Shown here: in pieces, positions 29,599 through 39,238 of the stretch
Layout: every line of letters starts with the position of its first letter
Position numbering within the stretch: position 1 is the first letter of the stretch
DNA from: SAR324 cluster bacterium
GTDB lineage: Bacteria > SAR324 > NAC60-12
Length of the DNA: 41,512 bases
Reading direction: 5' to 3'
Assembly: GCA_029245725.1 (NCBI GenBank)
Contig: JAQWOT010000133.1
Span: 1-41,512, forward strand
Position numbers and translations under genes: made by a program
Notes under the pieces: generated by a model
The model's database searches: none
Seen by the model: the letters and a program-made list of their open reading frames with translations, nothing else
What the model was told of the DNA's origin: nothing

Positions 29599-30363
29599 TT
29601 AATCAATGGTCGCACCTCCATCAATAACCAGGTGGGCGCCTGTTACGAAAGAGGCTTCATCTGAAGCGAGAAAGAGGATGCCATTGGCTATCTCGACGGG
29701 CTCTCCCATCCGCTTCATTGGGGAATCCTGCCCGAACAATGTCCGGCCCTCTTCAACACTGATCCCGATGAATTTCATATGATTTTCGCTGGCTTGAGTG
29801 AAAATTGCTCCCGGACATACACCATTCACTCGAATATTTTCTGAAGCTAAATCTAGTGCAAGACAACGAGTCATCTGCATAATTCCGCCTTTAGATGTGT
29901 TGTAGGGTACAAAAGCCGGCTGTGCAATAAAAGAACTAACAGAAGCCACATTGACGATGGCACCACCTCCATTGGCCCGCAGATGTGGTAAGACAGCCTG
30001 AACCATATTTGCATAACCGATGATGTTCACTCCCAAAACCTTTTGCCAGTCCTCTGCGGTAGCTTCCTCAATTTTGCCAAAAACAAAAGCCGCTGCATTA
30101 TTGACAAGGATCTGAAGACTTCCAAAGGATGAGATTGTGGCTTGCACGGCCATCTCAATTGCTTTGGAGTCAGATACATCTGCTTGCTGATATTCAGCTT
30201 GTCCCCCTGCATCTCGAAGCATTTGTGCAGTCTGCTTGGCATCATCTCCATTGATGTCAACAACCATTACTCTAGCACCTTCCTCTACAAAACGTAGGGC
30301 TGTTGCTTTACCTATTCCTGCCCCAGATCCGGTGATGATTGCGTTCTTGTTTTTCAGTCTCAT
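29599..30363 (-). CDS. SDR-family dehydrogenase
   Basis: A classical short-chain dehydrogenase of 254 residues. Cofactor motif TGSGAGIGKA (about 11-20) is followed by VVDIN with D36 at the end of strand 2, which favours NAD over NADP. The NNAA motif is at about 88-91, and the catalytic Ser143 region, Y154 and K158 lie in SVSSFIAQPAFVPYNTSKGG. The C-terminus ends GAHLVIDGGATID, as usual. It is the last gene of the deoxysugar operon, 27 bases after the amidohydrolase. In that context it may oxidise a deoxysugar (rhamnose or fucose 1-dehydrogenase) or a keto-deoxy acid; the family alone does not settle this. Confidence 0.88.
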   Translation of the reverse strand: MRLKNKNAIITGSGAGIGKATALRFVEEGARVMVVDINGDDAKQTAQMLRDAGGQAEYQQADVSDSKAIEMAVQATISSFGSLQILVNNAAAFVFGKIEEATAEDWQKVLGVNIIGYANMVQAVLPHLRANGGGAIVNVASVSSFIAQPAFVPYNTSKGGIMQMTRCLALDLASENIRVNGVCPGAIFTQASENHMKFIGISVEEGRTLFGQDSPMKRMGEPVEIANGILFLASDEASFVTGAHLVIDGGATID

Positions 30364-30390: not shown

Positions 30391-31302
30391 TTAGGCTCTG
30401 TAAATTCGCATTGCATTTAATGCAAAGAGAGCCTCTTGTTCCTCTTGACTTCGATGATCCACTAGTCGTTGAAATTCTTGATACATACTTTGAGCATTCC
30501 AACCGTCCAGTTTTTCTACAGGATAATTTGAGGCGAAGATGCAGCGCTGGACTCCGAATAAATCAATCACCTTATTCACTGTCTCCTTGATGAGGGCATC
30601 CTTATGCCACTGCTTGTTTGGGTAGGTCAGCATTGAGAGTTTTATCGATACCTGTTCAAGGTTAGCCAACGCTTGCAATCCTTCCCAATATTTCTGTCCT
30701 TCCAAAAGATTTTCTCTTTTGGGTGTGCCCAGATGATTTAGAATCACAGGAATTTCAGGATTTCTTTGAAAAATCTCAGCAGATTGTTTGTATTGATGGG
30801 GATTACATTGCAAGTCAAACGAATAACCTGCCTCAACTAATGTGCTAAAGCCTTGTTGCCATTTGTTCGAATCTAACAAGTTACCAAGTCGATTGTTTCT
30901 GGGCCAGGAGGGTTCATGGTTCAAGATTTGACGAATCCCACAAACATTCGGAATTTTCTGGAGCCGAGCTAACAGTACCAGCCACTCAGGGCTTTCCAGA
31001 GGTCCTGTAGCCACAATCTGATAAGGGAGGCTTGATTGTGAACATTGATCAGTAACCCACTTGGCTTCTGCTAAACATGCATTTTCGTAGAGAGGCCCAT
31101 CGTGTTCTATGTGGCATACGCTGACGGCCTCAACAAAAGTTCCTCCGATCAGTTCAAAACCTTCCATGCTAAGATCAGTTTCATAGCGTTGAATAGTGTA
31201 AATGGGGTCTTCGTCTGGAGCAAATAATTGGGCTGAATCATGGCCACTCGGACTGTTTGGGCGTACATCCCAGATGTGAAAATGTGGATCCCAGACTTTC
31301 AT
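30391..31302 (-). CDS. COG3618 amidohydrolase, lactonase-like (copy 2)
   Basis: A 303-residue TIM-barrel hydrolase of the amidohydrolase-2 family, the group that contains L-fuconolactonase and L-rhamnonolactonase. The metal motif HxH is H7/H9 in VWDPHFHIWD. Further conserved blocks are GTFVEAVSVCHIEHDG, VCGIRQILNHEPSWPRN and ILNHLGTPKR. Near the end, FASNYPVEK has Asn where many members have the metal-binding Asp (FGSDWPV). It is clearly paralogous to the gene at 35071-35988, sharing long identical blocks. It sits 27 bases after the aldolase gene and 27 before the SDR gene. A sugar-acid lactone is the most likely substrate. Confidence 0.85.
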   Translation of the reverse strand: MKVWDPHFHIWDVRPNSPSGHDSAQLFAPDEDPIYTIQRYETDLSMEGFELIGGTFVEAVSVCHIEHDGPLYENACLAEAKWVTDQCSQSSLPYQIVATGPLESPEWLVLLARLQKIPNVCGIRQILNHEPSWPRNNRLGNLLDSNKWQQGFSTLVEAGYSFDLQCNPHQYKQSAEIFQRNPEIPVILNHLGTPKRENLLEGQKYWEGLQALANLEQVSIKLSMLTYPNKQWHKDALIKETVNKVIDLFGVQRCIFASNYPVEKLDGWNAQSMYQEFQRLVDHRSQEEQEALFALNAMRIYRA

Positions 31303-31329: not shown

Positions 31330-33420
31330 CTAACGCACAAAAGCTTCGTGCAACCCCCCATCAACGTTGATAAGTTGTCCTGTGGTTCGACAGAGACGTT
31401 CAGAGGCTAGCAGAAAAATTGCCTCTGCCTGGTGTTCTGGTGAAATCTCTGATTTAAGCAGAGTTCGCTGAGCATAGAAATCTGCCAGACGCCTTCTCAG
31501 GATTTCAGTATCCTCATGCTCATCGAAAGTTAATTGATATTTTGAAAGTGAGGAAATTAATCGTTTTCTAGGGAACATGCTGCTTCCTTCCAGCACTGTC
31601 GCAGGTGCTAACGCATTGACCCGCACCAGAGGAGCCATTTGAACCGCCAATTCTCTGACTAAATGATTCAAAGCAGCTTTCGAACTATCATAGGCCAGGC
31701 TGCCCACTTTACTCACAGTTGCGTTCACAGATGAGGTTAAAATAAGGTTCGCAGGCATTTCTTGTCTAAGCCAAACTGTGTAGGCCTCTTCAGCAACCAT
31801 CGCAGGGCCGATCACATTCACATCGTAAGTCTGGCGCCACTGACTATCCGAGATACGACCAGTTGCATCAGGTGGAAAAAACACTCCGGCAGTAATAATC
31901 AAAGTGTCCATCCCTCCGTAAGCCAACACTACATCTTCAAATAGCTGATTTAGACTCTCACTGTTGGTGATGTCTGCTGATCTAGCGAGGGTTGGACCAC
32001 AGGTGCTCAGCCTACTGCCAGCCACCCCAATGCCAACTCCCACTTTTTTCACTAACTCTTCAGCTGTAGTTTTGGTGGCCAGGGAATTAGCATCTGCACA
32101 GACAACATTAGATCCCTCCCCAAGCAAGCGGTGGCAAACAGATTTACCAATCCCAGAGCCTGCTCCAATTACCACAGCGACTTGTCGTGACAACTCCTGT
32201 TCAGGAGGCATCCGCCGAAGCTTTGCTTCTTCCAGAAGCCAGTACTCTATATCAAAGGCTTCTTGCTGATCGATAGCAACGTATTCATCTACTGCTTCAG
32301 CTCCCCGCATCACTTCAATTGCACAATTATAGAACTCAGCGGTTACCCGGCTTTCACTCTTGTTTTTACCCCAAGCAATCATCCCAAGTCCTGGGATGAG
32401 GATAACACTGGGGTTGGTGTTTCGGAGCGCAGGAGAATCTTCATGCTTACAACGCTCATAGTAAGCAGAATAATCTTGTCGATAATTACCAAGCCCCTTC
32501 AAAATCAGTTCTTTCAAATCATCCAGACTTTGACGGTGAGGATCCCAAGGAACATACATTGGCTTGATCTTGGTTCGCAGAAAGTGATCTGGACAACTTG
32601 TACCCAATTCTGATAGACGAACAACATCTTCAGAGTTGACGAAGTAGCGCATCATCTCACCATCTTGCACAGTCGCAACAAGTCGCTTATCGCTGGATAC
32701 CTGGCCACGGAGCCAGGGCAGAATTTCAACAAGTGTGGATCTGCTTGCAGCTTTGTTTAGTTCTGGATAGCGAATTCCACCGAAAGTCATCTCTCCTTTA
32801 TCATGCTGGGCTAGATGCTCATCAGCTTTTTGGATGATCTCTACCGTCCATTCGTAACACTCCTGGTTACTTTCAGCCCAGTTGATTACACCATGGCCAC
32901 CAAGCAATATTCCCCTTGCGCTGGGGTGATCTTTACAAATCTTCTGCAACTGCAGTCCTAGATCAAAACCTGGTCGTTGCCATGGCCACCAGATCAAATC
33001 ATCTCCCCAGATCTTTTTCGTCAGCTCCTTGGAACGCTTGGAAGCTGCAATAGCGATCACAGAGTTTGGATGCATATGATCGACATGCTTGTGTGGGATG
33101 AAGGCATGTAAGGGGGTATCAAGCGAAGCAGCCCGAGGATTCAGATTGAAGGTGCAGTGTGGGTACATGCCGACCATCTGATCTTCTATGCTGGTCTTGT
33201 AGCCCTTCACTGGTGCAGAGGTGTATTTGGGGATCAGATTGAGCAATTTCTGCTGATACAGAGAAGAGAAATTTTCACGCTTGGAAGTGCGTAGATCTCC
33301 TCCTGATCCCTTAACCCAAAGAACCTCGGTTTGCTCATTACTAAGCGGATCAATTTCATGTAATTTTGCAGAGGTGTTCCCTCCACCAGTGTTAGTTATC
33401 CGTTGGTCGGACCCTAGCAA
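31330..33420 (-). CDS. Fused rhamnulose-1-P aldolase / dehydrogenase
   Basis: A two-domain protein of the bifunctional rhamnulose-1-phosphate aldolase/lactaldehyde dehydrogenase family (RhaD/RhaE or YuxG type, about 700 residues). Numbering from the TTG at 33420, residues 1-385 form a class II aldolase with TNTGGGNTSAK, metal histidines in HKHVDHMHPNS (112-117) and GGHGVINW (H176). Residues about 412-696 form an SDR domain with GAGSGIGKS (419-427) and Y577/K581 in LAYDSSKAAL. It would split the phosphosugar into DHAP and L-lactaldehyde and oxidise the aldehyde. The TTG start cuts conserved sequence: homology continues upstream to a TGA (see 33421-33519). The aldolase and dehydrogenase cores are intact. 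Confidence 0.88.
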   Translation of the reverse strand: MLGSDQRITNTGGGNTSAKLHEIDPLSNEQTEVLWVKGSGGDLRTSKRENFSSLYQQKLLNLIPKYTSAPVKGYKTSIEDQMVGMYPHCTFNLNPRAASLDTPLHAFIPHKHVDHMHPNSVIAIAASKRSKELTKKIWGDDLIWWPWQRPGFDLGLQLQKICKDHPSARGILLGGHGVINWAESNQECYEWTVEIIQKADEHLAQHDKGEMTFGGIRYPELNKAASRSTLVEILPWLRGQVSSDKRLVATVQDGEMMRYFVNSEDVVRLSELGTSCPDHFLRTKIKPMYVPWDPHRQSLDDLKELILKGLGNYRQDYSAYYERCKHEDSPALRNTNPSVILIPGLGMIAWGKNKSESRVTAEFYNCAIEVMRGAEAVDEYVAIDQQEAFDIEYWLLEEAKLRRMPPEQELSRQVAVVIGAGSGIGKSVCHRLLGEGSNVVCADANSLATKTTAEELVKKVGVGIGVAGSRLSTCGPTLARSADITNSESLNQLFEDVVLAYGGMDTLIITAGVFFPPDATGRISDSQWRQTYDVNVIGPAMVAEEAYTVWLRQEMPANLILTSSVNATVSKVGSLAYDSSKAALNHLVRELAVQMAPLVRVNALAPATVLEGSSMFPRKRLISSLSKYQLTFDEHEDTEILRRRLADFYAQRTLLKSEISPEHQAEAIFLLASERLCRTTGQLINVDGGLHEAFVR

Positions 33421-33519
33421 ATTAGAGTGGTAGATCAGTTTGCCAACTGGATCAAGTGTATTTGCGTAGTTAGTGTCCCAGGTCGGATAAGGTCAATTCA
33501 AGGGTGTAGGGTATTTCAT
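33421..33519 (-). other. Aldolase N-terminus split by in-frame TGA
   Basis: Upstream of the TTG at 33420 the aldolase frame stays open and family-like (WDTNYANTLDPVGKLIYHSN leads into LLGSDQRI). It is then interrupted by TGA at 33493-33495. Beyond that, the frame continues MKYPTPLN from an ATG at 33517-33519, which overlaps the rhamnulokinase stop as ATGA. That overlap is the usual coupled start, so the ancestral gene very probably began there. No ATG, GTG or TTG lies between the TGA and 33420. The TGA is either a nonsense mutation, a sequence error or a recoded codon. Confidence 0.75.
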
Positions 33520-34997
33520 GGTAATTTCAGGTAACGTTGATAGGCCTTTTCCCAGATCGATTGATCCTGGGGAAGATATTCTTCAATTTCAAAAGAGTTT
33601 CGGACAGTTTGGCGTATTTCTGAGAGTGAACTCAAATGTCCGAGGGCAAGACTTTGAATCAGAACATTCCCAATTGCAGTTGCTTCGGACGGGCCACTGA
33701 GGACCCTACGTCCAGTGGCATTGGCTGCTAGCTGATTCAGGAGTTTGTTCTTGGATCCGCCACCAACAATGTGGAGCGTTCGCAGGCTTTTCCCCGTTGT
33801 TTCCTCAAGTTCATCAAGTACCTTTCGATATGAGAGCGAAAGACTTTCCAGTGAACTCCGAACAAAGGCTCCATGATTTTCAGGAACGGGTTGTTTCGAT
33901 TCAATACAGTAGGCTGCTATTTTTTCAGGCATTTCACCGATTGTAGCAAACCGAGGATCGTTGGGATTAATTAGAGATCGTAGAGAGGATGCCACCGATG
34001 CCATTTCGGTGAGAGTAGAATAATCGTAAGAACACCCCTCTCTTGCCCACTTGCGACGACACTCCTGTATAACCCATAAACCACTGATATTTTTAAGTAA
34101 ACGAATACTATGGTTTAATCCTACCTCGTTTGTGAAGTTGTACTGGCGGCTCTTGGAAGTGATCACAGGTGCCGCCAATTCAATTCCTAACAGGGACCAT
34201 GTCCCAGAGCTAAGATAGGCCCAGTCTTTTTGTTCACTTTGTGCGGGAGTACCGACTACGGCTGCTCCTGTGTCATGTGAGCAACTTGCAATCACTTTGG
34301 TGTTGCTTGCTAGGCCTGTACTCTCTGCAACTTGTTCATTAATTTGCCCGAGTATCGATCCACAGGGTACAATTTCTGGGAAAAGATCATAGGGCAATCC
34401 AAGGGCATCAATCAGCGGCTTAGACCATTCATGCTTGCGGGGATTATAAAGCTGAGTTGTACTAACCATGGAAGCATCTCCCACTGCGACTCCAGAGAAC
34501 ATGTAGTTGAACCAATCACCCATTGGGATCAGTTTATTAGCAAAGGTCAGCAACTCAGGGCACTCTTCTTGGGCAGCAGCGAGCTGATAGATTGTATTGA
34601 TTGGCATGAACTGAATGCCAGTTTCCTCAAAAATAAAATCTTCACCGAGTTGCTTACAAACCTTCTTGTATGAGACCAGATTGCGTGGGTCCCGATAGTG
34701 CCGTGGGGGAGTAAGAATGGGTTCTTGATCACGAATAAGAACAAAATCGAGTCCCCATGAATCAGCACTCAAACTGGCAATTGGCAAGTTGAGCTGAGCT
34801 GCCTTGCGTACACCAATACGGAGTTCTTCAAAGATTTGTAGGACATCCCAACGGAGAGACTCTCCAACAGAGATGCTACCTGTTGGAAAACGATGAATTT
34901 CCTCTAGCTGAAGTTGTCGTTGATGGAGAATTCCAACCATTACACGAGCGCTTTCGGCACCACAATCCAGCGCAATATAAGCTTGTTTTTGAACCAT
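33516..34997 (-). CDS. rhaB: Rhamnulokinase, FGGY family
   Basis: A 493-residue sugar kinase. The N-terminal phosphate loop is IALDCGAESARVM (D11), the RhaB-type substrate segment is ADSWGLDFVLI with RHYRDPRN, and the catalytic Asp is D242 in CSHDTGAAVVG. The C-terminal ATP domain has LHIVGGGSKNKLLNQLAA and GNVLIQSLALG. These features fit rhamnulokinase better than xylulo- or glycerol kinase, although L-fuculose or another ketose cannot be excluded. It precedes the aldolase gene with an ATGA overlap, so kinase and aldolase would act in sequence on a ketose such as L-rhamnulose. No isomerase gene is visible nearby. Confidence 0.9.
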   Translation of the reverse strand: MVQKQAYIALDCGAESARVMVGILHQRQLQLEEIHRFPTGSISVGESLRWDVLQIFEELRIGVRKAAQLNLPIASLSADSWGLDFVLIRDQEPILTPPRHYRDPRNLVSYKKVCKQLGEDFIFEETGIQFMPINTIYQLAAAQEECPELLTFANKLIPMGDWFNYMFSGVAVGDASMVSTTQLYNPRKHEWSKPLIDALGLPYDLFPEIVPCGSILGQINEQVAESTGLASNTKVIASCSHDTGAAVVGTPAQSEQKDWAYLSSGTWSLLGIELAAPVITSKSRQYNFTNEVGLNHSIRLLKNISGLWVIQECRRKWAREGCSYDYSTLTEMASVASSLRSLINPNDPRFATIGEMPEKIAAYCIESKQPVPENHGAFVRSSLESLSLSYRKVLDELEETTGKSLRTLHIVGGGSKNKLLNQLAANATGRRVLSGPSEATAIGNVLIQSLALGHLSSLSEIRQTVRNSFEIEEYLPQDQSIWEKAYQRYLKLP

Positions 34998-35070: not shown

Positions 35071-35988
35071 TTATGAGTAGGTTTTGTAAACTCGTTTTGC
35101 ATTTTCAGAGAAGAGTTTTTTTTGATCATTTGGACTAAGTGATTTGACTAAACCTCTTAATGCACCAAATAGCCTTTCTGCTGGCCAACCATCATTTAAT
35201 TCAACAGGAAAATTTGAGGCAAAAAAACAGCGATCAACCCCGAAGATATCAATAATTTTTAAAACCGTATCCTCCACAAGGGGGTTGTTCTGCCAATCTT
35301 TATCAATGTAGGACAGCATGGAAAGCTTTACAGAGTTTTGAGGCAGATCAGCTAGAGCTTTAATTCCCTCCCAGTAAATTTTTCCAGTGGTTAAGTCTTG
35401 TAAGATTGGACTTCCGAGATGTCCAAGGACTAATGGGATTTCAGGATTTCTTTCAGATAATCTTGCTGCTTGCTTAAATTGATGAGGGTTGATTTGCAAA
35501 TCAAAGATGAGTTCAAAATCTTTAAGTTTTTCGAATCCAGCACACCATGCTGGATTATCAAGCAAATTCCCCAAGCGTTCATTTCTTGGCCAAGAAGGCT
35601 GATGGTTCAAGATTTGTCGAATCCCTACTACTATTGGATTTTGAGCAATTTTGGCGAGATGTTTTGAACAATTTGGGTCTTCGAGGGCCAAGGTTGCGAC
35701 AATATAATAATCTTTTGTTGACCGACTAATTTGCTCGGAGACCCACTTGGTCTCCGCTAAGCAGTACTTAGCATAGTCATCACCACTAAGATCAATATGG
35801 CAAACACTGACTGCCTCGACAAAGACTCCTCCGGTTAAATGAACACCATAGGTCTTTAAGTCTTTCTCAAAATCCTGAATTCCATAAATTTCCTGGCCAT
35901 GTGGAGCAAACAGAACATTGCAGTCGTGTCCACTGGCAGTTTTCAATGAAATATCCCAAATGTGAAAATGAGGATCCCAAAATTCCAT
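35071..35988 (-). CDS. COG3618 amidohydrolase, lactonase-like (copy 1)
   Basis: A 305-residue TIM-barrel amidohydrolase-2 protein, paralogue of the gene at 30391-31302. Both share WDPHFHIWD (H7/H9), FVEAVSVCHI, GIRQILNH-PSWPRN-RLGNLLD, NPHQ-KQ and KLSML-Y, roughly half of all positions by eye. The C-terminal block is FASNFPVELNDGW, again with Asn in place of the common Asp. The expected role is hydrolysis of a deoxysugar lactone or a related cyclic ester. It lies between the mutarotase (72 bases upstream) and rhamnulokinase (73 bases downstream). Keeping two diverged copies in one operon suggests different substrates or anomers. Confidence 0.85.
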   Translation of the reverse strand: MEFWDPHFHIWDISLKTASGHDCNVLFAPHGQEIYGIQDFEKDLKTYGVHLTGGVFVEAVSVCHIDLSGDDYAKYCLAETKWVSEQISRSTKDYYIVATLALEDPNCSKHLAKIAQNPIVVGIRQILNHQPSWPRNERLGNLLDNPAWCAGFEKLKDFELIFDLQINPHQFKQAARLSERNPEIPLVLGHLGSPILQDLTTGKIYWEGIKALADLPQNSVKLSMLSYIDKDWQNNPLVEDTVLKIIDIFGVDRCFFASNFPVELNDGWPAERLFGALRGLVKSLSPNDQKKLFSENAKRVYKTYS

Positions 35989-36060
35989 GTTTCGTGTTTC
36001 AAAACGATTAACAGACAGTTTTTGAAGACTAGTTAACCTTGTGATTTATCAGATTGAAGG

Positions 36061-36378
36061 TCAGTCCATATGCCACTGTAGTGGCAGCAAGAATGGGAAG
36101 TTTTTCTGAGAATCTATTTCGATCTTCATAATTGGAGTCATATGCTCACCCCAGTGTCTATTCACATCACTAGCGTTGATCGCTGCAATTGTTTGCTCCA
36201 AGTTTTCCGTTTCAAAATAGCCAAAAAGTGTCAGGCCATGCCGAAAAATGGAGTAGTTTCGAACTCCTGCCTTTCGAAGCATGTCAACCATTTCTGGCCA
36301 TATTTCATCATGACGCTTTTTGTATTCATCCTCATAGCCAGGACGTACTTCTAAAACCCATGCAAATTGTTGATTCAT
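36061..36378 (-). CDS. rhaM: L-rhamnose mutarotase
   Basis: A 105-residue dimeric alpha/beta-barrel protein of the RhaM/RhaU family, which interconverts alpha and beta anomers of L-rhamnose (or L-fucose). Characteristic segments are FAWVLEVRPGYEDEYKKRHDEIWPEM with the catalytic His, VRNYSIFRHGLTLFGYFE and VNRHWGEHMTPIM. Full length for the family. Its start overlaps the stop of the PhyH-type dioxygenase as ATGA (36375-36378), so the two are translationally coupled. It is the clearest marker that this operon handles a 6-deoxyhexose. Confidence 0.92.
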   Translation of the reverse strand: MNQQFAWVLEVRPGYEDEYKKRHDEIWPEMVDMLRKAGVRNYSIFRHGLTLFGYFETENLEQTIAAINASDVNRHWGEHMTPIMKIEIDSQKNFPFLLPLQWHMD

Positions 36379-37259
36379 ACAACTTCCCGTTGAAGCTCAG
36401 TTGTTGGTGGTGAAGACTGCCTTCTAAACTCCTGAATCCGATAAATCGAATCGGGATTCGGAGGGCGTGGAAACGGCATGATGATATGTTCAGGCTCGCT
36501 CCTAGGGTGCAGAGTACCTTTCCCTAGTACAATCTTTTCTTCAAATTCTTGAAAGTCTCCGTAAACTGCAAAATCAACCAGAGGCCAGGCATCTGCAGAA
36601 GCGTATTCAAAAAGGAGCAGTCGACGTGGACGATTTGAGAAATTTGGACTAGAGCCATGTAGGGCTTTGACATGATGGAAACTTGCTGAACCAGCCGAAC
36701 CTGTCAACTTTACTGCTGTGGAAAGATCAATGTTCTCAGAATCAGGATTAACTGATCCACTGAACACCCCTTGGAAGTGATGGTTCAGAGTTTTGCCCCG
36801 ATGGCTGCCCGGAACAATCATCAGCGGAGCGTTATTTTCATCAATATCATCAATCATAATGCCTACTGCTAGTAGATCGGCATTGGTGTGCGGATAAAAA
36901 GCCCAGTCTTGATGCCAGTCAACAGCTGCACCTCCATGAGCCTCTTTTATGTTGAGCTTGCTGTTCCTGAAGCGGATGTTTTCACCAATTAATTTGCTCA
37001 GGATCTCAAGTATTTTAGGCTTTCTGACAGCTTCTGCAAAAATAGGATGTTGTTCGTGAGGCACCTTGATTCTCTGGACCCTCGGTTTCTGGCTAGAGTG
37101 ATTGTGTTCCAGGTCAAATTTTTCATCGGAAGTTATGTGACTCCTTGATTGTTCAATCAATTCATCTGTGGCAAGTTGAAGATCATGAACTTCTTCTTTG
37201 TTAAACAGGCCTTCAATACAGGTAAAGCCCACTTGCTGATACTCCTCGATCATATTCAT
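36375..37259 (-). CDS. PhyH-family Fe(II)/2-oxoglutarate dioxygenase
   Basis: A 294-residue member of the phytanoyl-CoA dioxygenase family. The iron ligands are visible: H116 and D118 in AVDWHQDWAF, and the distal H201 in VKALHGSSPNFSN. The basic residues after it (RPRRLLLFEYA) would bind 2-oxoglutarate. Family members hydroxylate many small molecules, so the substrate cannot be named. In this operon it might oxidatively remove a methyl or other substituent from a modified deoxysugar, which is speculation. It is seven bases downstream of the Gfo/Idh gene and is coupled to rhaM. Confidence 0.87.
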   Translation of the reverse strand: MNMIEEYQQVGFTCIEGLFNKEEVHDLQLATDELIEQSRSHITSDEKFDLEHNHSSQKPRVQRIKVPHEQHPIFAEAVRKPKILEILSKLIGENIRFRNSKLNIKEAHGGAAVDWHQDWAFYPHTNADLLAVGIMIDDIDENNAPLMIVPGSHRGKTLNHHFQGVFSGSVNPDSENIDLSTAVKLTGSAGSASFHHVKALHGSSPNFSNRPRRLLLFEYASADAWPLVDFAVYGDFQEFEEKIVLGKGTLHPRSEPEHIIMPFPRPPNPDSIYRIQEFRRQSSPPTTELQREVV

Positions 37260-37266
37260 GATTTGC

Positions 37267-38325
37267 TCAATTACAGATTATTGCTTCTTTTGATTTGGCG
37301 GATTTGTAGAGGGCTTCGAGAACCTGAACAGTTTTGAGACCCACCTCATGGTTTCCACAATTTCTCCGACTTTTCCCTCTACAGATGTCGATGAATCGAT
37401 TCATCGACTCTTGCGTAGAATAAGAACCAAATCCGCCATTCTTTTCAATCTGAACGAGGATGTCTTTTTTATCGAAACGTCTGATTTGCAAACGTTCCCG
37501 CTCTGGTTCTACATCTAAAAGCATCATTCCTTCGCTGCCATAGATTTTTAGATCTAGTTGAGGCGGACAGTGCTTTGGTAGTCCTGCTGCACCTGATAAA
37601 ACAGCAGAGGCACCGTTGCCAAAACTAATAATAGCTGAGTCGTAATAATCTGCACCTGTCTTAGAATTTACTGTGCGAGCAAATACACTTGCTGGTTCCA
37701 AAGATGTCACAAAAAAAAGGGCTGCAAGAGCATGGGATAGTTGGCCCCATCCATAGCCTCCAGCACGATTTGGATCTGCCCATGTGGATGAATGAGGTCG
37801 GTACATGTGCTTTTCTGTTTCAGCCATGGGCTCACCACCAAAAAGATCCATTAAGGCAGAAGACATATGTAAGGCAACGTGCTGGATTTTACCAATACTT
37901 CCCATTGCAACTTGGTCGGCAGCAGACTCCATGTATTGGGTATGATTCAGCCCGTAAGGTGTCATCAAAGTTTTTCCTGTTTTCCGAGCAATTGAACAAA
38001 GTGCTTCTGCATCTTCTGTCGAGGTTGCCATTGGTTTTTCTACCAAAACATGACAACCCTTTTCTAAGGCATACTTGGCATGCTCTGCATGGAAAACATG
38101 CGGTGAAGCTACGATTACACCATCTGGGTTGAGTGCATATAGTTCCGTATGATCTTCACTGACGAATGGAATCTCAAAATGTTTTTGGATTTGTTGTAGT
38201 TCCGCTGAGCCAATTCTAGAAACTCCAACAAGCTCTGCGTTTGAATTGGCTAGGATATGAGGAAGATGAAACTCACAGGCCCACCATCCAACTCCCACTA
38301 CAATAATTTTTGATTTTTTACTCAT
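37267..38325 (-). CDS. Gfo/Idh/MocA-family oxidoreductase
   Basis: A 352-residue NAD(P)-dependent sugar oxidoreductase. The Rossmann segment IIVVGVGWWACEFHLPHI is a variant of GxGxxG, with Ala for the last Gly. The conserved EKP motif (E96-K97-P98 in HVLVEKPMATS) and a C-terminal substrate domain with GGYGWGQLSHALAALFF follow. Family members oxidise or reduce ring carbons of sugars or inositols. It is the first gene of the minus-strand operon, and its start faces the GntR regulator gene across 229 bases. No strong ribosome site precedes it. Confidence 0.88.
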   Translation of the reverse strand: MSKKSKIIVVGVGWWACEFHLPHILANSNAELVGVSRIGSAELQQIQKHFEIPFVSEDHTELYALNPDGVIVASPHVFHAEHAKYALEKGCHVLVEKPMATSTEDAEALCSIARKTGKTLMTPYGLNHTQYMESAADQVAMGSIGKIQHVALHMSSALMDLFGGEPMAETEKHMYRPHSSTWADPNRAGGYGWGQLSHALAALFFVTSLEPASVFARTVNSKTGADYYDSAIISFGNGASAVLSGAAGLPKHCPPQLDLKIYGSEGMMLLDVEPERERLQIRRFDKKDILVQIEKNGGFGSYSTQESMNRFIDICRGKSRRNCGNHEVGLKTVQVLEALYKSAKSKEAIICN

Positions 38326-38554: not shown

Positions 38555-39238
38555 ATGATTACTTGGCAGGAATCTAATATAGAGCGACCCAAATCATTGG
38601 TTCAGATCGCTGCGGACTCAATCCGGAGGGGGATTATACTTAGTGAGTTGGTCTTGGGGCAGCCTCTCACGGAGGCTGGTTTGGCAAAAACTCTTGGTAT
38701 CAGTAAAACTCCGGTCAGAGAAGGCCTATCTCTATTGCGTTCAGAAGGCCTTGTGGTCGCAGAGCCCCATCGTGGCTACAGAGTTTTTAGTATGACACAA
38801 GAGGAGCTAGTCGATTTTTGTGAATTACGTTTTGCCTTGGAATCCCAGGCATTACGTTATGCGGTCCAGCGTCAACCATCAAAGCTTGCTAAACAACTCC
38901 AGCAAATTTTGACCGAAATGGAGGACAACTTCAGTCCAGAGAATCGTGAAAAGTACTTAGAGTTAGACACAAACTTCCACAAGAGCTTTTTCAGCTATGC
39001 CGAAAGTAGATTCCTGCTTCAACATTACGAAAATATCAATGCTATCATTGAGACTGTACGCCACTACATTTCTGGGACTGATGCAGCAACGGGTAATGCT
39101 TATGAGGATCACAAAAAGATTACGGAATGTCTCATCAATAGTGATCTTGTGGGGGCACTGGGACATTTAGAGGTGCACATTGTCAACTGGTCCAAACGAA
39201 GTAATTTAAAGGCAAATCTCTTGGAGGTGATGAAGTAA
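38555..39238 (+). CDS. GntR-family regulator with FCD domain
   Basis: A 227-residue transcription factor. The N-terminal winged helix-turn-helix (about 15-78) includes LTEAGLAKTLGISKTPVREGLSLLRSEGLV and the wing PHRGYRVFSMT. The C-terminal FCD ligand domain (about 85-215) has helix ELRFALESQALR and the metal-binding pattern D-x3-H (ELDTNFHKSFF) with later His in YEDHKKI and HLEVHI. FCD regulators commonly sense sugar acids or lactones. Divergent placement from the deoxysugar operon makes this its likely controller. A good GGGAGG ribosome site precedes the ATG. Confidence 0.9.
   Translation: MITWQESNIERPKSLVQIAADSIRRGIILSELVLGQPLTEAGLAKTLGISKTPVREGLSLLRSEGLVVAEPHRGYRVFSMTQEELVDFCELRFALESQALRYAVQRQPSKLAKQLQQILTEMEDNFSPENREKYLELDTNFHKSFFSYAESRFLLQHYENINAIIETVRHYISGTDAATGNAYEDHKKITECLINSDLVGALGHLEVHIVNWSKRSNLKANLLEVMK

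Follow-up and report, generated by a model that had tools for sequence, protein, structure and literature searches.

A gene for a PhyH-family dioxygenase in a bacterium of the SAR324 cluster stands in what its neighbours mark as an operon for the breakdown of methyl-pentose sugars, and it very probably acts in deoxysugar catabolism. The gene lies in a contig of 41,512 nucleotides (GenBank JAQWOT010000133.1), referred to here as the window, meaning the whole stretch of DNA that was analysed; G-numbers designate genomes and L-numbers loci, with G000 being the window's own genome. The neighbourhood suggests, with somewhat less than even confidence, that PhyH is an accessory oxygenase of the operon, which would remove a substituent from a decorated 6-deoxyhexose. 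That this substituent is an O-methyl group in particular is doubtful. The underlying observation of a first-pass annotation, a phyH gene joined to a sugar mutarotase gene, is real, conserved, and more general than first noted, yet it is not general in bacteria.

The operon consists of eight genes on the minus strand, in the order Gfo, PhyH, RhaM, Amidohydro_2, kinase, RhaD/ADH, Amidohydro_2, and SDR, beside a divergent gene for a GntR/FCD regulator (Table 1). Judged by these products, the run is a methyl-pentose (L-rhamnose/L-fucose-type) catabolic operon. The fused RhaD/ADH protein scores above its cut-off, and thus the aldolase of the phosphorylative L-rhamnose pathway is recognised here. 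RhaM passes the Pfam cut-off of PF05336, while its 75.5 bits against TIGR02625 fall short of the equivalog cut-off of 99.6; its solved relatives are 2qlx, 2qlw (RhaU), and 1x8d (YiiL). The Gfo/Idh/MocA product is probably a deoxysugar 1-dehydrogenase, and both Amidohydro_2 proteins are likely, from their family matches, to be sugar lactonases. Of the operon proteins scanned, none was recognised as formaldehyde-handling or as a glycosidase or sulfatase, and counts of promoters and terminators were no higher than in shuffled sequence. The regulator occupies the same position in all six loci whose stretch reaches it (the window, G001, G004, G005, G007, and G027); the contigs of G002 and G013 end before that point. 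CUT2-type sugar ABC genes are missing from the window between rhaM and the first amidohydrolase gene, as a result of either real loss or an assembly fault, and no close copy of the ABC binding protein was found elsewhere in the window's genome (best match 30%).

Table 1. Features of the phyH operon and its regulator, with positions in the window.
Feature	Position	Strand	Evidence
SDR dehydrogenase	29599..30363	-	PF13561 210.3 bits; NF005559 252.3 bits, cut-off 215
Amidohydro_2 protein (second)	30391..31302	-	PF04909 77.8 bits; NF052480 63.1 bits, under cut-off 400
Bifunctional rhamnulose-1-phosphate aldolase / short-chain dehydrogenase (RhaD/ADH fusion)	31330..33420	-	NF006189 990.6 bits, cut-off 634
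Rhamnulokinase-like FGGY kinase	33516..34997	-	TIGR02627 449.3 bits, under cut-off 527.95
Amidohydro_2 protein (first)	35071..35988	-	PF04909 86.6 bits; NF052480 L-fucono-1,5-lactonase 61.6 bits, under cut-off 400
72-base gap in place of four sugar ABC-transporter genes of sister loci	35989..36060	-	Locus comparison
RhaM, L-rhamnose mutarotase family, 105 aa	36061..36378	-	PF05336 E=1.3e-25, 90.1 bits, cut-off 23.4
ATGA overlap, phyH stop / rhaM start (four bases)	36375..36378	-	Common to 5/5 genus loci
PhyH-family Fe(II)/2-oxoglutarate dioxygenase, 294 aa	36375..37259	-	PF05721 109 bits
Gfo/Idh/MocA oxidoreductase, first operon gene	37267..38325	-	PF01408 90 bits
GntR/FCD-type regulator, divergent from operon	38555..39238	+	PF07729 68 bits, PF00392 45.6 bits

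The phyH product belongs to the PhyH family over the whole of the domain: residues 7 to 213 align with positions 1 to 212 of the 213 in PF05721 (E=5.4e-31, against a cut-off of 22 bits). The iron-binding residues named in the first-pass annotation, H116, D118, and H201, are indeed present and, together with R212, are invariant in an alignment of 11 homologues. R212 lies 11 residues past the distal His and, from what is known of the family, is presumably the arginine that binds 2-oxoglutarate; HxD and H-x10-R were found in all ten of the RhaM-linked PhyH copies chosen. By its alignment, then, the protein has the residues of an Fe/2-oxoglutarate PhyH enzyme. An AlphaFold2 model was obtained with good confidence (pLDDT 85). 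Among the 50 solved matches listed, the best are GriE, proline hydroxylase H11, and EctD (about 20 to 26% identity); EvdO1, EvdO2, and AviO1 are also among the 50, and 2a1x, human phytanoyl-CoA hydroxylase, ranks eighth among the matches listed. The solved relatives are mostly small-molecule hydroxylases, including the sugar-acting EvdO1, EvdO2, and AviO1. PhyH scores 73.8 bits against the ectoine hydroxylase profile TIGR02408 and 42.9 bits against the methylphosphonate hydroxylase profile NF052437, below the equivalog cut-offs of 336.5 and 500, respectively. In viral contigs, the PhyH patterns gave no match.

The overlap of the phyH stop with the rhaM start, which the first-pass annotation had described, is identical in G000, G001, G002, G004, and G005, all five genomes of the genus that have the locus, and so is conserved rather than a matter of chance; the sequence GGGAAG stands shortly ahead of the rhaM start. 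The annotation had also called the two genes translationally coupled: the overlap on which that statement depends holds in every one of the five loci, and coupling itself is a deduction from it. The sixth genome of the genus, G003 (68% complete), gave no RhaM match. Between rhaM and the first amidohydrolase gene, G001, G002, and G004 carry four sugar ABC genes (ATPase, two permeases, and binding protein), and the G005 contig stops after three of the four. Two genes in these loci are broken, either by sequencing error or by decay: phyH of G001, in two frames (L037, 8640-9852), and the RhaD/ADH gene of G004, in four pieces (L031, 16762-18816).

Outside the genus, the arrangement is kept in part. 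The locus of G027, from another genus, has GntR, Gfo, PhyH, RhaM, and the ABC genes in the same order (PhyH 71% and Gfo 64% identical to those of the window), with rhaM starting 53 bases after phyH, a gap rather than an overlap. Next come genes for an SDR, for an L-rhamnonate dehydratase (530.7 bits against a cut-off of 393), and for a lactonase-like protein, and the contig has no match to RhaD/ADH. Since the window has the RhaD/ADH route and G027 the dehydratase route, the PhyH operon leads into two different downstream routes. In G007 and G013, PhyH (68-70% identical) is followed by ABC genes, a different RhaM (33% identical to that of the window), and a lactonase-like gene, with this other RhaM type 4.7-4.9 kb from PhyH; the Gfo of G007 is 64% identical to the window's. 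A mutarotase has therefore been kept there, although it is encoded by another rhaM. Gfo and PhyH stand in the same order in three genera. Thus, the tight phyH-rhaM overlap is found only at the level of the genus, and the Gfo/Idh/MocA gene is the steadier partner of PhyH.

In the phylum as a whole, RhaM was found in eight of 52 sampled genomes (15 genes). Of the 15 genes, 13 share their contig with a PhyH gene no more than 5.4 kb away, and at least three arrangements occur among them; the remaining two genes are at contig ends. One of these pairs, on contig C404 of G000, is 5.4 kb apart and is not clearly a single operon. A second operon, present in G000, G004, and G005 (L061, L063, and L064), contains Gfo genes, a PhyH gene 26% identical to the window's, RhaM, and L-rhamnonate dehydratase; typing of its genes in G004 revealed a peptide-type ABC permease, an AP_endonuc_2 TIM barrel, the dehydratase (524 bits against a cut-off of 393), and a class II aldolase. 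The L064 copy also holds a sulfotransferase-like protein alongside an AP_endonuc_2 protein and a peptide-type ABC permease. A third arrangement is that of G002, where RhaM and a gene of MR_MLE type (enolase superfamily) run divergently from a Gfo gene and a PhyH gene of 24% identity. The absence of linkage from relatives, which the first-pass annotation had named as evidence against its proposal, was looked for and is not what these genomes display. PhyH genes are dense in them, so some proximity to RhaM is expected by chance: G000 (4.4 Mb) has 34 PhyH matches, and any PhyH was found in one of 14 control genomes. For two of the five RhaM genes in G000 to fall within 3 kb of a PhyH gene has a chance probability of 0.02, which for one genome is modest evidence; conserved gene order therefore carries the argument.

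A comparable association is present in an order of small-genome Alphaproteobacteria. In a class-wide sample, RhaM was found in 15 of 190 genomes, with PhyH at one (L208) of the 16 loci read; L208 is of the window's RhaM-Gfo type (RhaM 64% and Gfo 45% identical). A window-type Gfo (E of 1e-40 or better, 42-45% identical) was present in 46 of the 162 genomes of the order to which L208 belongs, a probably SAR11-like group whose listed genomes have 0.9-1.6 Mb. Stretches of 6 to 20 kb around this gene were read in 40 of the 46, and RhaM lies within 150 bases of Gfo in 36 of the 40. PhyH was detected in 13 of the 40 stretches and not in 27, with a profile built from 14 sequences that may miss remote copies; in two genomes among the 27, G352 and G395, a different contig carries a PhyH block with the same gene order. 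These genomes contain 2-14 PhyH genes each, about seven on average, so that by the author's arithmetic about 9% of clusters would have a PhyH within 8 kb by chance, as against the 13 of 40 seen, in genomes that are related and share few arrangements. At least three PhyH-RhaM arrangements occur in the order.

Three of the 13 stretches (L254, L273, and L274) contain a PhyH of the window's family, 38-45% identical; the other ten contain only a remote PhyH type, detected by profile, whose representative in L208 is 24% identical over 80 residues. L274 has one more remote copy beside its family member. The remote PhyH adjoins Gfo and a 456-aa gene, whose L254 copy matches the glycolate oxidase subunit GlcD below cut-off. 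This 456-aa gene encodes an FAD-linked oxidase in L254 and L208, and in L245, L246, L248-L253, L263, and L275 the remote PhyH overlaps its end, tail to tail with the Gfo beside RhaM. In G313, G365, and G352, the family-type PhyH stands between one ABC transporter, ahead of it, and an SDR gene, after which comes a run with a second ABC transporter, typed in G365 as a ketopantoate-hydroxymethyltransferase-like gene plus the transporter. In G313 and G365, whose contigs extend farther, this leads on to genes for an AP_endonuc_2-type protein, for RhaM and Gfo, and for an L-rhamnonate dehydratase that scores 469 bits in G365 (cut-off 393). G395 has the same start as the G313/G365 block, and in both G352 and G395 the RhaM part is on another contig. 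The placement of PhyH beside SDR and a second ABC transporter in G313, G365, and G352 would fit a pattern of added substrate. Because rows of ABC genes, SDR, RhaM, and Gfo also exist without PhyH (examples are L255, L256, and L258), the run with PhyH resembles a block that was added together with an importer of its own. G302 (L273) has its family-type PhyH in a different arrangement, without the added transporter of G313 and G365. The ketopantoate hydroxymethyltransferase-like protein of L254 (13481-14329), encoded between the PhyH-adjacent SDR gene and the second ABC transporter, may have a formaldehyde-linked or aldolase role.

Farther afield, homologues of PhyH with 42-50% identity occur at 78 loci in named bacteria, and protein comparison with the window's RhaM found the mutarotase at none of these loci (45 of all 80 loci reach 18 kb). 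These homologues were accordingly discarded as support for the linkage, and the PhyH family is not devoted to a deoxysugar pathway. The check proposed in the first-pass annotation, whether PhyH-rhaM coupling is conserved across genomes, comes out positive for linkage, which recurs in relatives, and negative for the overlap beyond the genus and for these broader homologues. SDR genes are present at 25 of the 78 loci; among the neighbour clusters whose representatives were typed, those of TRAP-transporter, 2-hydroxyacid-dehydrogenase, LacI-type, and dihydroxyacid-dehydratase proteins occur at 8-14 of the 80 loci each. Fifty of the homologue-bearing genomes were searched for RhaM, which is present in nine, at ten loci, with no PhyH in the stretches read there. 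In three of them (Rhodoferax, a Rhodobacteraceae genome, and Halovulum), a Gfo gene 32-35% identical to the window's directly precedes RhaM, in two with a sulfatase gene ahead; the Gfo-RhaM pair is thus more widespread than its PhyH. At L172 5956-8800 (Rhodobacteraceae PRO13) and L173 8536-11468 (Halovulum marinum), genes for a sulfatase, a Gfo of the window's type, and RhaM stand in a row, accompanied by an MR_MLE-type gene and one for a peptide-type binding protein; they look like gene sets for the use of sulfated methyl-pentoses. A general association between RhaM and PhyH was rejected, since PhyH stands at only one of 26 RhaM loci read in other bacteria, that one being L208.

A tree was built from 92 PhyH rows: 78 from the other loci, six of the window group, two paralogues, and six alphaproteobacterial (L274 and L286 being the same gene). 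The G001 and G002 copies (L068 and L071), two further paralogues, and the remote PhyH types were left out. The window's six rows group together (99/94), and five G313-type rows group with two SAR324-like paralogues (100/98), which adjoin SDR, MR_MLE, Gfo, and ADH genes (typed in L041). L273 has a long branch, and its placement is unsure. The RhaM-linked label requires at least two changes on the tree, most simply two recruitments; a single unchanged origin of RhaM-linked PhyH is accordingly not supported. Together with the loci above, the tree makes PhyH look like an accessory that deoxysugar catabolism can do without and has recruited more than once.

As RhaM-Gfo clusters exist without PhyH, and PhyH can bring further transport genes with it, we favour the reading that PhyH opens an additional, decorated substrate. 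A decorated 6-deoxyhexose would be imported by the sugar ABC transporter (not in the window, present in relatives), and PhyH would then hydroxylate the decoration at one of its carbons, the likeliest decoration being an O-methyl group. The unstable hemiacetal would split into free sugar and an aldehyde, which would be formaldehyde if the group were methyl. RhaM would interconvert the anomers of the freed sugar, which could proceed through the Gfo/SDR dehydrogenases and lactonases or through the kinase and aldolase. Hydroxylation of an O-methyl group, giving formaldehyde and free sugar, would be the simplest chemistry and is plausible. We hold the placement of PhyH in a sugar pathway strongly, its action on a substituent rather than the skeleton moderately, and the choice of O-methyl weakly. 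In the P450 system that demethylates 6-O-methyl-galactose, a precedent in logic, the adjoining alcohol dehydrogenases proved not to detoxify formaldehyde either (PMC10033563); that no formaldehyde gene was recognised in the window's operon is accordingly no refutation.

A different role in the same pathway would be hydroxylation of the carbon skeleton of a sugar, lactone, or aldonate, a core step that might replace a missing isomerase by making a ketose or a further oxidised sugar acid. The operon has the kinase-like and aldolase genes of the rhamnose pathway, and an isomerase was not found in the families searched, which leaves room for the oxygenase or Gfo to make a ketose or sugar acid directly. 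RhaA (PF06134), the L-rhamnose isomerase, is in none of nine genomes (G000-G005, G007, G013, and G027), as against three of 14 controls. The isomerase search is weak: the rhizobial type, TIGR02629, exceeds its cut-off in none of the nine but also in none of the 14 controls and gives 26-36 bits in five of the nine, and G007 has a fucose-isomerase C-domain match. The SDR neighbours of the homologues elsewhere, and smaller sets with TRAP-transporter, 2-hydroxyacid-dehydrogenase, and dihydroxyacid-dehydratase genes, would suit sugar-acid chemistry. Against this role, PhyH is missing from 25 to 27 of the 40 stretches read around window-type Gfo, which mostly have RhaM and often have genes resembling those of lactonases and dehydratases. 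Skeleton hydroxylation is rather unlikely. Attack on a phosphonate or sulfonate substituent of the sugar, for which the methylphosphonate hydroxylase PhnY* and the sulfoquinovose dioxygenase SqoD are models, is improbable: the NF052437 match of PhyH and the 88.9 bits of the regulator against the phosphonate-associated PhnR profile TIGR03338 point that way, but both are far below their cut-offs (500 and 271.5 bits), a PhnZ-like partner was not recognised among the operon proteins, and SqoD is a member of another oxygenase family.

The two remaining explanations detach PhyH from the sugar genes. With 34 PhyH matches in the window's genome, and a chance probability for that genome that is only modestly low, the neighbourhood of RhaM might be a coincidence. 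This is very improbable given the overlapping genes at all five genus loci, the Gfo-PhyH order kept at 64% (Gfo) and 68-71% (PhyH) identity, and the three or more arrangements both in the phylum and in the alphaproteobacterial order. Finally, as its Pfam name would imply, PhyH could be a hydroxylase of phytanoyl-CoA type that acts on chlorophyll's phytol chain, in which case it would stand here by accident. Published work reads PhyH in SAR324 (PMC9031357), SAR202 (PMC5395668), and SAR86 (PMC11582366) as serving phytol or branched-chain degradation. For SAR202, PMC5395668 also reports a 2-hydroxyphytanoyl-CoA lyase, so the lipid reading may be right there. Around the window's phyH, however, no lipid alpha-oxidation or acyl-CoA genes were recognised among the operon proteins scanned, Gfo and PhyH stay in order in three genera, and by sequence its nearest relatives of solved structure are EctD, GriE, and H11, with 2a1x eighth among the matches listed. 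The operon context speaks against lipids, making a sugar decoration the more likely target, and we consider the phytol role for this gene very improbable.

Extended beyond the window, the reading of PhyH as remover of a sugar substituent leads to a broader proposal, possible though on the doubtful side: in marine bacterioplankton of at least two distant lineages, PhyH proteins may be plug-in oxygenases that open decorated 6-deoxy sugars, such as O-methyl rhamnose or fucose, and that entered the RhaM-Gfo cluster on several occasions. In that case, many of the annotations of phytol degradation in these genomes would really denote oxygenolytic sugar catabolism. Among the open-licence PubMed Central papers listed, none links PhyH to rhamnose or fucose catabolism in its title or the start of its abstract. 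Should a 2-oxoglutarate oxygenase indeed give access to methyl-pentoses, sugar catabolism would gain a new entry step, in marine lineages that are probably abundant, and the many PhyH genes per genome would be easier to explain. It would also call into question how marine PhyH has been interpreted in PMC9031357, PMC5395668, and PMC11582366, where it is assigned to phytol or branched-chain degradation.

The window's PhyH shares with EctD, the leucine hydroxylase GriE, proline hydroxylase H11, and human PHYH the fold, the HxD...H iron triad, and the distal arginine; unlike them, it is encoded in a sugar operon, and its identity to the best solved matches is low. EvdO1, EvdO2, AviO1, and EvdMO1 are PhyH-fold oxygenases of the biosynthesis of orthosomycin antibiotic oligosaccharides, whereas the context of the window's PhyH, at about 21-23% identity to them, is catabolic. 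In porphyran-degrading Flavobacteriia, a cytochrome P450 and its ferredoxin partners oxidatively demethylate 6-O-methyl-D-galactose (PMC10033563). The proposed logic is alike in that an oxygenase would remove the O-methyl group so that the free sugar could enter the core pathway; the systems differ in the enzyme (PhyH here, a P450 with redox partners there), in the sugar, and in the activity, which is demonstrated there and proposed here. From the bacterial L-rhamnose pathways, both phosphorylative (RhaM, RhaB, and RhaD/ADH) and non-phosphorylative (lactonase and L-rhamnonate dehydratase), the operon differs by its added Gfo and PhyH genes and by the isomerase not found in the families searched, and it shares with them the mutarotase, kinase-like, aldolase/ADH, and lactonase-like genes, along with, in G027, the dehydratase.
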